From the NCBI RefSeq assembly GCF_019880225.1, contig NZ_CP082284.1:1984001-2048000 (forward strand): a DNA stretch of 64,000 nucleotides, read 5' to 3'. A model generated the notes under the pieces. It searched no databases. It worked only from the letters and a program-made list of their open reading frames with translations, and was not told the origin of the DNA. The DNA comes from Halobaculum rubrum. GTDB lineage: Archaea; Halobacteriota; Halobacteria; Halobacteriales; Haloferacaceae. The position numbers and the translations under genes are program-made. The first letter of the stretch is position 1, and every line of letters starts with the position of its first letter. Shown here piece after piece: positions 10,920 through 45,334 of this stretch.

Positions 10920-11014
10920 CCACCGGCGGCGAGGTCCGTGGGCCGAGCCGCACAGAACAGTAGCGAGCGAACGAGGTCTCGCGGGTCGTTCCTCCCCGCT
11001 CGCATCGAGGCCTC

Positions 11015-11510
11015 ACTCCTCACGGCTCGCTTCGCTCGCCGTTCACCGTCGCGGTCTCACGTTCGTTCGACCGCGCACCGTTCGGCCTCGCACTCCTCAC
11101 GGCTCGCTCCGCTCGCCGTTCACCGTCGCGGTCTCACGTTCGTTCGACCGCGCACCGCTCGGCCTCGCACTCCTCACGGCTCGCTCCGCTCGCCGTTCAC
11201 CGTCGCGGTCTCACGTTCGTTCGACCGCGCACCGCTCGGCCTCGCACTCCTCACGGCTCGCTCCGCTCGCCGTTCACCGTCGCGGTCTCACGTTCGTTCG
11301 ACCGCGCACCGCTCGGCCTCGCACTCCTCACGGCTCGCTCCGCTCGCCGTTCACCGTCGCGGTCTCACGTTCGTTCGACCGCGCACCGCTCGGCCTCGCA
11401 CTCCTCACGGCTCGCTCCGCTCGCCGTTCACCGTCGCGGTCTCACGTTCGTTCGACCGCGCACCGTTCGGCCTCGCACTCCTCACGGCTCGCTCCGCTCG
11501 CCGTTCGCTC
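11015..11510. repeat. 77-bp tandem repeat, six units plus a partial seventh
   Basis: Units start at 11015, 11092, 11169, 11246, 11323 and 11400, with a partial copy from 11477, exactly 77 bp apart. They are near identical; only a few positions vary, such as TCGCTTCGCTC for TCGCTCCGCTC in unit one and a T for C in the first and last unit. Each unit holds two stem-loops: ACGGC/GCCGT around the core TCGCTCCGCTC, and CGCGGTC/GACCGCG around a 12-nt loop. 77 is not a multiple of 3, and the open frame through the array has no coding character. It fills most of the 720-bp gap between the importer operon and the geranylgeranyl reductase gene. Confidence 0.95.
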
Positions 11511-11590: not shown

Positions 11591-12961
11591 ATGACCACCC
11601 ACGAGCCCGACATCGTCGTGGTCGGCGCGGGGACGGCGGGCTGTTACGCCGCCGCCACGGCCGCCGATGCGGGCCTCGACGTCGTCATCGTCGAGCGAAA
11701 AGACGAGGAGGAGGCGGGCCACATCGCCTGCGGCGACGCGCTCAAGGGCGCCGACGAGTTCCCCGAGTCCATCCCGAAGTCCGAGCTCGACTCGGCGTTC
11801 ACCAACACCGGCGTGGACCACGGGCGCTTCGAGATCCCGAGTCACGACACGGTGTTGGAGATCCCGATCCCCGGCGAACTCGCGGTCATCGACCGCTGGG
11901 AGTACGGCCGGAACGTCATCGCGGGCGCCGAGCGGCGCGGGGTCGAGTTCCACTACGACACCGTCGTTCAGGACGTAACCCAGACGGACGACGGCCGGGT
12001 GACGGGCGTCCGTGCGAAACGGAAGGGCGACGTCGTCGAGTACGACGCCGAGGTGACCATCGACGCCGCGGGCGCGCTGTCGATCCTCCAGGACAAGGCC
12101 GACCTCGCGGACGCGACGTTCGACACGAACGTCTCGTTCTCGCAGTTCTGCTCGGCGTACCGCGAGGTCGTCGAGGTGCCCGAGCCGGTCGACTACGACG
12201 ACGCGCTCGTGTTCAAGCCGACGAAGCGCGCGGCGGGGTACCTCTGGTACTTCCCGCGGACGGACACCGAGATCAACGCCGGCCTCGGCTTCCAGATGAA
12301 CGAGGAGCCGATGAAGCTCGTCGACGACCTGAAGCAGGACCTCCGGAACCGTCCGGAGTTCGAGGGCGCGGAGGTAACCGACAAACTCGGCGCGGCCCTG
12401 CCCACCCGCCGGCCGTACGACTCGGCGGTCGCGCCGGGCTTCATCGCCGCCGGCGACGCCGCGGGCCACGTCAACCCCACCACCGGCGGCGGCATCGCCG
12501 GCGCCGCGTACGCCGGGAAGTACGCCGCCGAGCAGGCGGTCGAGGCCATCGACGCCGGCGACGTGAGCGAGGAGGCGCTGTGGCACTACAACGAGCGCGT
12601 GATGGGCCACTTCGGCTCCCGCTACGCCGCCCTCGACGTGTACAACATCCTCTCGACGGCCGTCGACGTGGACGAGCTGATGGGCCTGCTCGCGTCGCTG
12701 CCGGGCGAGAGCCTCGCGGAGGCGCTGTACTCCGGCAGCGCGTCGGTGAAGCCGCGGCTCGTCGCCGAGGTGATCAAGGACAGCTACGGCCACTGGGGCC
12801 AGATCTGGGAGTTCTACAAGACGAAGCGCGTCGCCGACGACCTGATGGACCACTACGGCCGCTACCCGACGCGACCCTCGGCGTTCGAGCCGTGGCGCGA
12901 CGAGCGCGACCGGCTGATGGAGCAGGTGTACGACGTGACCGGCGCGGACCCGAAGTACTAA
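11591..12961 (+). CDS. geranylgeranyl reductase family flavoprotein
   Basis: The 456-residue FAD protein should reduce the isoprenoid chains of archaeal membrane lipids (digeranylgeranylglycerophospholipid reductase role). The dinucleotide-binding motif VVGAGTAGCYAA is at residues 10-21, and the ERKDEEEAGHIACGDALKG region matches the family Cys-containing loop. A second flavin motif, GFIAAGDAAGHVNPTTGGGI, lies near residue 285 and contacts FAD. Length fits the family. Other geranylgeranyl reductase paralogues act on quinones or chlorophyll precursors, so the lipid role is the most likely but not proven. ATG 11591 follows a T-rich tract. Confidence 0.88.
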   Translation: MTTHEPDIVVVGAGTAGCYAAATAADAGLDVVIVERKDEEEAGHIACGDALKGADEFPESIPKSELDSAFTNTGVDHGRFEIPSHDTVLEIPIPGELAVIDRWEYGRNVIAGAERRGVEFHYDTVVQDVTQTDDGRVTGVRAKRKGDVVEYDAEVTIDAAGALSILQDKADLADATFDTNVSFSQFCSAYREVVEVPEPVDYDDALVFKPTKRAAGYLWYFPRTDTEINAGLGFQMNEEPMKLVDDLKQDLRNRPEFEGAEVTDKLGAALPTRRPYDSAVAPGFIAAGDAAGHVNPTTGGGIAGAAYAGKYAAEQAVEAIDAGDVSEEALWHYNERVMGHFGSRYAALDVYNILSTAVDVDELMGLLASLPGESLAEALYSGSASVKPRLVAEVIKDSYGHWGQIWEFYKTKRVADDLMDHYGRYPTRPSAFEPWRDERDRLMEQVYDVTGADPKY

Positions 12962-13030
12962 CCGACCACTTTTCGCGGGGGCCTCGCGCGCCTTCGACGC
13001 GCTCGATCCCCGCCAAACCCCGTCGATGCT

Positions 13031-13180
13031 GCAGGAACGCGAAGCGTTCCTGCTGCTAACCAGACGCCTGCGGCGTCTGGTGATGCGGTCGGATTCAAAG
13101 AATCCGACTGCTAATCAGAATCGCAAAGCGATTCTGATGATGATCAAAAGGCCGCTCGCTCGGGTCGCCGAAGGCGACCC
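13031..13180 (+). repeat. hairpin array 1: five short perfect hairpins, four at 28-bp spacing
   Basis: Hairpins are at 13031-13053 (arms GCAGGAACGC, loop GAA), 13059-13081 (ACCAGACGCC, loop TGC), 13087-13109 (GGTCGGATTC, loop AAA, one G-T pair), 13114-13138 (ATCAGAATCGC, loop AAA) and 13162-13180 (GGGTCGCC, loop GAA). The first four loop centres (13042, 13070, 13098, 13126) are exactly 28 bp apart. Linkers alternate between a CTGCTAA type and a TGATG type. The array fills most of the 343-bp gap between the convergent reductase and amidohydrolase genes. Its linker orientation is that of the reductase transcript. Confidence 0.9.
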
Positions 13181-13304
13181 TCGCTCGCGGTGGACCGCGT
13201 AGTGACGACCGCCCGAACCGCGACTGGAGGCCGTTACTCGCTCAGGACGAACGTCGGGACCGCGACGGAATCCGTATCCGAGATCCCCGGCGTGAGGGAC
13301 CGCC

Positions 13305-14585
13305 TCAGGGCCGTCTATCGGCGATCTCCAATACCGCGGCCGTGAGGAAGTCGACGCCGATGTCGAGCGACTCTTCCTCCACGTCGAACGTGCTCGTGTG
13401 GTGACCGCCGGGGTGACTGGTGCCGATCCCGACGTACGTCGCGTAGCCGCCGTTGTCCTGTACGGTCTGCATCATGTACGTCGCGTCCTCGCTGCCCCCC
13501 AGTTCGTCGCGCTCGATCACGTTCGTCACGCCGTCGATATCGCCGGCGATCTCGGCGATCGGCGCCGCCAACTCCTCGTCGCTGGTCGCGGAGGGAGCGC
13601 GTCCGAGCGTCTCGACGTCCACGTCGACCTCGTGCATGTCGGCGGCCGACTCGATGACGCGGTGGGCCTTCCCGTCCATGTACTCCATCAGCTCGGTCGT
13701 GCCGCCGCGCACTTCGCCCTCGACGAAGCACTCCTCGGGGATGATGTTCGTCGCGGTGCCGCCGCCGACGATGCCGGCGTTCACCCGGGTCGGGCCGTCG
13801 GCGTGGCGGGGGATCCCGTAGAGGTTCTGGATGGCCGCGGCCGCGGCCTGCACCGTGTTTCGCCCCTGTTCGGGGTGGCCGCCGGCGTGGGACGGTTCGC
13901 CCTCGAACTCCGCGAGGAAGTGCGAGACGGCGAGGAAGCCGTCGATGCCGCAGATCACCTCGCCGGTCGGGTGGTCGAGGCCCACGTGGGCCGCCAGGAA
14001 GTACTCCACGTCGTCGATCAGATCGGACTCGGCCATCGGCTGTCCCCCGACGATCTGCTCTTCGCCGGGCTGGAAGAACACCTTCAGCGTGCCCGCGAAG
14101 TCCGAGGCGAGGATCTCGTCGATCAGCCCGAGCCCGAAGGTCGCGTGGGCGTCGTGGCCGCACGCGTGCATGTGCCCCTCGTTCTCCGAGCGGAATCCCT
14201 CCTCGGCGGGCACGTGACCGCCGTCCTCGGACTCGAGGATCGGGAGCGCGTCGATGTCGACGCGGACGCCGACGACCGGTCCCTCACCGCGTTCGAGCAC
14301 GGCGACGGCGCCGGTGTAGCCCCCCTCGATCTCGGCGAGCACGTCCTCGCGCGCGCCGGCCTCGCGAGCGCGCTCGAACCACTCGGCGAGCTCGTCGTCG
14401 TCGGGGACGTTCATCCGCTCGCCCCCGAGGATCTCGGGTCCGTAGTGGACCGCGGTGAGATCCCGGGACTCGAGTTCGTCGACGATCCGAGCGGTGGTGT
14501 AGAACTCGCACCACGCCGGCTCCGGGTGACGGTGGAGGTCGCGGCGGAACGCCGACAGGTCGTCGTGAGCGACTGTCTGGCTCAT
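13305..14585 (-). CDS. M20 family amidohydrolase, AbgA-like
   Basis: The 426-residue metallopeptidase-type amidohydrolase probably cleaves an N-acyl amino acid. The N-terminal RRDLHRHPEPAWCEFYT and the DVLAEIEGGYTGAVAVLERG stretch resemble subunit A of p-aminobenzoyl-glutamate hydrolase. Metal-site motifs are ACGHDAHATFG and FQPGEEQ; a dimerisation domain lies in the middle, and the C-terminal GIGTSHPGGHHTSTFDVEE holds the last metal His. It is predicted cytosolic. ATG 14585 gives the expected length. The physiological substrate is unknown. Confidence 0.88.
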   Translation of the reverse strand: MSQTVAHDDLSAFRRDLHRHPEPAWCEFYTTARIVDELESRDLTAVHYGPEILGGERMNVPDDDELAEWFERAREAGAREDVLAEIEGGYTGAVAVLERGEGPVVGVRVDIDALPILESEDGGHVPAEEGFRSENEGHMHACGHDAHATFGLGLIDEILASDFAGTLKVFFQPGEEQIVGGQPMAESDLIDDVEYFLAAHVGLDHPTGEVICGIDGFLAVSHFLAEFEGEPSHAGGHPEQGRNTVQAAAAAIQNLYGIPRHADGPTRVNAGIVGGGTATNIIPEECFVEGEVRGGTTELMEYMDGKAHRVIESAADMHEVDVDVETLGRAPSATSDEELAAPIAEIAGDIDGVTNVIERDELGGSEDATYMMQTVQDNGGYATYVGIGTSHPGGHHTSTFDVEEESLDIGVDFLTAAVLEIADRRP

Positions 14586-24677: not shown

Positions 24678-24782
24678 CGAGACGGCTTCGCCGTCTCGTC
24701 ATTACCAGACGCCGGAGGCGTCTGGTCAGCAGTCAGGTCCGTCGGACCTGACGGCATCACGAAAGGCGCTTCGCGCCTTTCG
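24678..24782 (-). repeat. hairpin array 2: four short perfect hairpins at 27-29-bp spacing
   Basis: Hairpins are 24678-24698 (arms CGAGACGGC, loop TTC), 24704-24726 (ACCAGACGCC, loop GGA), 24732-24752 (GTCAGGTCC, loop GTC) and 24760-24782 (CGAAAGGCGC, loop TTC). Centres are at 24688, 24715, 24742 and 24771. Read on the minus strand the linkers are TGATGCC and CTGCTGA, matching array 1, so the array points along the molybdoenzyme transcript that ends at 24809. The second hairpin has the same arms as one in array 1 with a different loop. The array lies in the 337-bp gap (24472-24808), whose other half is GC-rich with no gene seen. Confidence 0.9.
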
Positions 24783-45182: not shown

Positions 45183-45334
45183 TCACGAGACCTGCGGTCT
45201 CGTGAGCGCACAAATCGCGCAGCGGTTTGTGAACGCCGTGGTCCGTCGTCTCGCTCCGCTCGACGACGCGCTCTTCTTGGGCGGAGCGGCGCGGGACCGC
45301 TCCGCCGACCGCCCGAGCCGACTCCGTCGGCTCG
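45183..45334 (-). repeat. hairpin array 3 downstream of ileS
   Basis: Hairpins are 45183-45205 (TCACGAGACC, loop TGC), 45209-45231 (CACAAATCGC, loop GCA, one wobble), 45244-45268 (CGTCGTC around the core TCGCTCCGCTC), 45280-45306 (GGCGGAGCGG, 7-nt loop) and 45314-45334 (CGAGCCGAC, loop TCC). The last ends 2 bases from the ileS stop codon, so the array forms the 3' untranslated region of ileS. It lacks the conserved linkers of arrays 1 and 2. Confidence 0.8.

Follow-up and report, generated by a model that had tools for sequence, protein, structure and literature searches.

The four hairpins at 13031-13138 of the window (the whole 64,000-nucleotide stretch of Halobaculum rubrum DNA that we analysed) are probably part of a minute mobile DNA repeat shared by most haloarchaea. 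Comparison of its copies suggests that Halobacteria harbour a family of mobile DNA elements that are very small, non-autonomous and likely to act and to be renewed at the DNA level. The unit reads 5'-GTC-[hairpin 1]-TGCYA-[hairpin 2]-GAC-3' and spans 51-57 bp. In its modal form, each hairpin comprises 10+3+10 nt and the linker 5 nt, which accounts for the 28-bp period of the array. The initial annotation described this array alone and did not see mobility; the array has turned out to be one member of a family.

A hairpin scan of the 64-kb window placed the loop centres at 13042, 13070, 13098 and 13126, exactly 28 bp apart as originally reported, with perfect stems of 10, 10, 9 and 11 bp and loops GAA, TGC, AAA and AAA. 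All parts lie on the plus strand. Hairpin 1 (GCAGGAACGC gaa GCGTTCCTGC, 13031..13053) and hairpin 2 (ACCAGACGCC tgc GGCGTCTGGT, 13059..13081) are joined by the linker TGCTA (13054..13058), which appears family-wide as TGCTA, TGCCA or TGCTG. Hairpin 3 (GTCGGATTC aaa GAATCCGAC, 13088..13108) and hairpin 4 (ATCAGAATCGC aaa GCGATTCTGAT, 13114..13138) are likewise joined by TGCTA (13109..13113). The conserved linkers, CTGCTAA(C/T)CAGA and TCTG(G/A)TGATG, are present as first described. The proposed 56-bp double unit also proved real, and a covariance model built on it (R1; R2 is its refined version) matches across haloarchaea. Within the array, the model recovered GATGCT-[hp1]-TGCTA-[hp2]-GATG at 13021..13086 (R1 69.4 bits, E 2.3e-15; R2 73.4 bits, E 3.0e-21) and TGATGCG-[hp3]-TGCTA-[hp4]-GATGATC at 13080..13143 (R1 59.7 bits, E 1.0e-12). 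One point of the initial annotation did not hold: the arms are not unrelated. The motif xCCAGAxxxC underlies hairpins 2 and 4, and GxxxGAxxC hairpins 1 and 3, with differences that are mainly paired. The RNA fold of the array has z = -9.9, a value that none of 200 shuffles equalled. Across the window, 16 hairpins combine a 3-nt loop with at least 8 perfect pairs, versus 0.7 in shuffled sequence (about 24-fold), and four of the 16 are those of this array. Half of the perfect 3-nt-loop hairpins of the window sit in two arrays, at 13031-13138 and 24678-24782. Two other perfect 3-nt-loop hairpins, at 45183-45205 (TCACGAGACC tgc GGTCTCGTGA) and 45314-45334 (CGAGCCGAC tcc GTCGGCTCG), resemble arms of other subfamilies.

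The array is enclosed by a convergent gene pair, geranylgeranyl-reductase-like (ending at 12961) and amidohydrolase-like (ending at 13305), both named from their translations. Its 5' flank (CCGACCACTTTTCGCGGGGG...CCCCGCCAAACCCCGTCGATGCT, 12962..13030, plus strand) forms part of a composite copy and begins at the nucleotide that follows the upstream gene's stop codon; this flank also adjoins arrays at other loci in the sister genomes G007 and G009, and it is present in G005 and absent in G002. The 3' flank (13144..13193, plus strand) carries a further hairpin, CAAAAGGCCGCTCGCTCGGGTCGCC gaa GGCGACCCTCGCTCGCGG, within an inverted repeat at 13152-13190, and its tail recurs at loci L008, L048 and L090. 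G005, with 98% identity in the upstream protein, has the array at the orthologous place. G002 has the orthologous gene pair with a short spacer and no array, and G007 carries a nearly identical array downstream of a different gene. Since the array is present in G005, absent in G002 and located elsewhere in G007, it behaves as a whole as a dispersed insertion. Separately, six and a half 77-bp tandem repeats of 99% identity, with many CTCGCTCCGCTCGCC motifs, lie just upstream of the reductase gene, at 11014-11506.

The second four-hairpin array of the window, on the minus strand at 24678..24782, was identified by the hairpin scan, by its sequence and by the covariance model (92 bits, E 1.5e-21). 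It comprises TGATGCC-[GTCAGGTCC]-TGCTG-[ACCAGACGCC]-AATGA and two flanking hairpins, and on its own strand it reads [CGAAAGGCGC]TGATGCC[GTCAGGTCC]TGCTG[ACCAGACGCC]AATGA[CGAGACGGC]. The stem of hairpin 2 thus recurs here, with the loop TCC. BLAST searches found four further loci in the source genome, and about ten loci carry the element there overall. Scanning the same genome with the pattern TGCTAAN{14,30}TGATG returned nothing beyond the 13031-13138 array that exceeded a reversed-pattern control.

The initial annotation had called for a search for further loci in related genomes, and this search gave ample returns: R1 matched 31 of 60 relatives, and R2 matched 238 of 292 haloarchaeal genomes, representing 73 of 77 genera (E <= 1e-4), with at most about 18 copies counted in any one genome because of a cap. 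In a phylum-wide sample, 14 of the 19 class members listed gave a match, as did one genome outside the class (G318), whose match contained no double hairpin on inspection. When 84,980 species were scanned for the exact pattern, the matches listed with names all came from haloarchaea and from a small number of related archaea, halophilic or unclassified, among them Actinarchaeum halophilum. From the fetched loci we extracted 255 double hairpins, of which 186 have the linker TGCTA, TGCCA or TGCTG. The arms are highly diverse, with 59 different hairpin 1 arms and 39 different hairpin 2 arms among 179 elements. BLAST found no match to the element in plasmid and phage collections, and the only Rfam hit in the window was a sub-threshold symR (E 0.22), with no match at gathering level. 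At six loci (L043, L044, L050, L061, L063 and L064), which span several genera, arrays lie within a longer repeat, possibly a distinct MITE-like element, that starts with GAAAGCCC(C) and ends with (G)CCCCTTTCA.

Filled and empty sites could be compared directly within two conserved genes of Halolamina. In dapA, L255 is empty, reading GGCGCCGTC|GCCGAGGAC, and L253 and L254 are filled by an additional 57 bp, GTC-[23]-TGCCA-[23]-GAC. In rlmE, L284 and L285 are empty, and empty relatives read GAACTCGAC|GCCGAG or similar; L283 and L289 are filled by 51 bp in one species and by 108 bp, two tandem units, in H. salifodinae. No target duplication is evident at the filled versus the empty sites of either gene, and some of the empty sites could be deletions instead of unfilled targets. 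Orthology was verified for dapA, rlmE and the window locus. We also considered a model of target duplication, or of a first arm copied from the target, and rejected it, as the longest stretch shared between the left side and the right flank was no better than in shuffled sequence.

The filled genes keep their reading frames open, and Pfam recognises the DHDPS and FtsJ domains in their products. In the alignment to the closest solved homologue, 2yxg, a gap of 19 residues falls where the insert lies. In-frame copies were found in about nine other genes (GH3-like, S9 peptidase, AbrB-like, antiporter-subunit-like, glyoxalase-like, tnpB and two more), with names read from the translations where Pfam did not supply them. 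The insert has a sole stop-free frame, ...SANQ..SGD.., and the clearly placed in-frame copies share one strand and phase throughout, the tnpB copy L065 being the only exception. This shared orientation is explained by TGCTAA and TGGTGA, which bring stop codons into the remaining sense frames. Elsewhere, copies break tnpB or aldo/keto reductase genes by a stop or a frameshift. The aldo/keto reductase genes at L059, L134 and L212 represent three lineages; in each, the element lies at a similar place, before DTAN, and there is an in-frame stop. An AbrB-like protein at L144, L176, L199 and L219, from three genera, ends in a common in-frame insert, ..VDESRRLSSANQN..RSGDVD.., whose loop codons differ.

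Examining the base pairs and loops of the copies pointed to DNA as the level at which the hairpins are maintained. Among the 2148 pairs of 221 distinct hairpins, we counted 12 G.T or T.G and 17 A.C or C.A mismatches. The hairpin finder favours good hairpins; it tolerated no more than two mismatches and accepted only hairpins whose closing base was paired, which inflates the resulting figure of 98% Watson-Crick pairs but affects neither the comparison of G.T with A.C nor the choice of C-G. If a transcript were under selection, one of the two mismatch classes should be commoner, so their equal rarity argues against selection at the RNA level. The closing pair was C-G in all 338 three-nucleotide loops of the element. 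The loops were GNA in 124 cases and its complement TNC in 105, together 229 of 338 (68%), versus 106 of 425 (25%) for other 3-nt-loop hairpins in the same DNA. GNA loops closed by G-C pairs form ultra-stable, nuclease-resistant DNA mini-hairpins (PMC4686876), and the near-equal numbers of GNA and TNC imply that the stable cap can be on either strand. Homologous copies have identical stems with flipped loops (GAA/TTC and TCC/GGA). Hairpin 1 has the loop TTC in the homologous G007 array, and hairpin 2 carries TGC in G000 and the flipped GCA at the orthologous site in G005.

Conserved linkers combined with changing, complementary arms, as first described, are the rule of the family. In 71 disjoint copy pairs with similar flanks, 65 paired and 25 single stem changes were counted; a single swap of a module enters this tally as several paired changes, and some of the pairs may consist of dispersed, non-orthologous copies. 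Between L045 and L051, whole arms differ and the flanks are intact, which looks like module exchange. The comparison at the shortest distance, G000 versus G005, revealed three stem differences, each confined to a single arm, so that renewal of the arms is not immediate, and there are mismatched intermediates that disappear later. We infer that extruded hairpins undergo arm-to-arm copying or inversion, along with exchange between copies. The main rival is that selection for extrudable DNA hairpins could yield much the same pattern without re-templating, for instance if the cruciform were kept, through compensatory mutation, as a BIME-like protein-binding or topological site. The C-G-closed GNA loops, the near-perfect stems and the presence of C-G caps in every copy examined fit such selection; however, loop flips and wholesale module swaps between unchanged flanks point to a process of copying or inversion, and copies lie within genes at places without an evident site function. 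We therefore consider cruciform selection alone rather doubtful.

On the reading that we prefer, that of a mobile element renewed as DNA, the unit inserts without duplicating its target, chiefly into intergenic DNA and at times into genes, and tandem units give rise to the 28-bp hairpin ladder at 13031-13138. Its conserved features are the geometry, the linkers and a C-(GNA)-G cap carried by either strand. The hairpins, extruded in single-stranded or cruciform DNA, would have one arm re-templated from the other, inverted or swapped as a module, and, being nuclease-resistant, they would probably also serve as the recognition feature for insertion. Of the two origins offered by the initial annotation, RNA structure is disfavoured by the mismatch classes and the in-frame copies, and cruciforms or the copying of new palindromes fit best with the flips, the C-G-closed GNA loops and the paired arm changes. 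A bolder version, in which we place somewhat less than even confidence, is that of a selfish element that inherits its shape (spacing, linkers and C-(GNA)-G caps) instead of its stem sequence. Its hairpins would undergo re-templating, flipping and swapping as DNA in haloarchaeal cells, and it would have spread across the class, in frame in conserved genes too, through hairpin-forming single-stranded DNA without a dedicated transposase.

Several known systems resemble the element in part. The nearest kinds by behaviour are the Rickettsia palindromic elements (RPE), the double-hairpin elements (DHE) of Allomyces and the small mobile repeats SMR-A of Haloquadratum, none of which demonstrably includes the family on all defining points. 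RPE are small palindromic repeats found in frame in unrelated protein genes, with one translatable frame and no known transposase (PMC10969869). The element likewise lies in frame in unrelated genes (dapA, rlmE, GH3, S9 peptidase, AbrB, tnpB and others); however, RPE measure about 100-150 bp, fall into several sequence families and occur in Rickettsia, whereas the element is archaeal and 51-57 bp long, with two hairpins, C-(GNA)-G caps and variable arms. The DHE of Allomyces mitochondria and the hairpin elements of sponge mtDNA are mobile, lack flanking duplications and also occur in genes (PMC2800124); transposition through an RNA intermediate was proposed for them, and sponge stems are conserved while the loops vary (PMC2800124). 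The element shares with DHE two adjacent hairpins, mobility and the lack of flanking duplication, a resemblance in kind only: DHE and the sponge elements are mitochondrial, and in the haloarchaeal element stems and loops both vary while the geometry is fixed. REPs are marked by a conserved tetranucleotide tag, and their stems are conserved as well (PMC3733652). REPs and BIMEs are similar to the element as dispersed extragenic palindromes in mosaic arrays, but the element has neither a conserved stem nor a GTAG/CGTC-type tag with RAYT, and no Y1 association.

The SMR-A repeats of Haloquadratum walsbyi lack a transposase and target duplications, reach up to 54 copies and lie in near-terminal palindromes of PATE/IS605 (PMC3119063). 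The element is likewise haloarchaeal and transposase-free, and at dapA and rlmE it also lacks target duplication. A recurrent subset of copies, within L220-L252 (e.g., L227:4072-4122 and L228:186-236), splits a conserved palindrome, CCCCACCCTACT...GAGGGTG^GGGC, which is apparently an IS605/PATE end; many other copies lie elsewhere. Such interruptions, of CCCCACCCT...GAGGGTG^GGGC, and related double hairpins in or near tnpB in the H. walsbyi C23 genome (G014) favour membership in SMR-A. We nevertheless consider membership unlikely, as SMR-A, by their description, measure about 110 bp and have prominent terminal inverted repeats, as opposed to GTC/GAC in a unit of 51-57 bp. The closing-stem excess at these termini is slight (2.0 pairs versus 1.8 in shuffles). 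SMR-A are also described from one species, with no variable arms or in-frame insertions reported.

The element could alternatively be a minimal PATE, that is, fused left and right ends of IS200/IS605 moved by the Y1 (TnpA) transposase acting on single-stranded hairpins. Like PATE and IS605 ends, it has two subterminal hairpins, very small size and no target duplication, and the 52-bp terminal-only PATEs described in Haloquadratum (PMC3119063) also count in favour of this origin. However, the Y1 transposase does not track the element and was rejected as its mobiliser: across 20 genomes, its presence showed no association with copy number, with Y1_Tnp absent from the copy-rich G025 and G084 and present in G067, G173, G221 and G066, in which no copy was found. 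IS605 ends are sequence-specific, whereas the arms of the element vary freely, and many copies lie inside IS605/PATE-like ends and tnpB rather than forming those ends, making a PATE origin improbable. Least probable is a structured RNA (a 3'-UTR stabiliser, bidirectional terminator or non-coding RNA) kept by selection on RNA pairing. The array does lie between convergent genes and immediately past a stop codon; CTTTT occurs on the plus strand, and on the minus strand CCTTTT comes behind a GC hairpin. Its fold is very stable and several other intergenic copies likewise begin just past a stop codon, yet G.T is no commoner than A.C on either strand, strand-flipping loops are not expected of any RNA motif, copies lie within intact genes and no Rfam family matched.

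Our search of open-licence papers found no description of the element, and two of its properties, arm conservation in geometry only and flipping C-(GNA)-G caps, were not found described for small palindromic mobile repeats. It seems to be a mobile repeat that spans the class Halobacteria and has so far gone undescribed, and its in-frame insertions in conserved enzymes are comparable to those of RPE. With its hundreds of copies, the family offers a natural setting for counting paired stem changes and flipped loops. How palindromic repeats without a transposase move and stay palindromic is thereby directly testable in culturable archaea.
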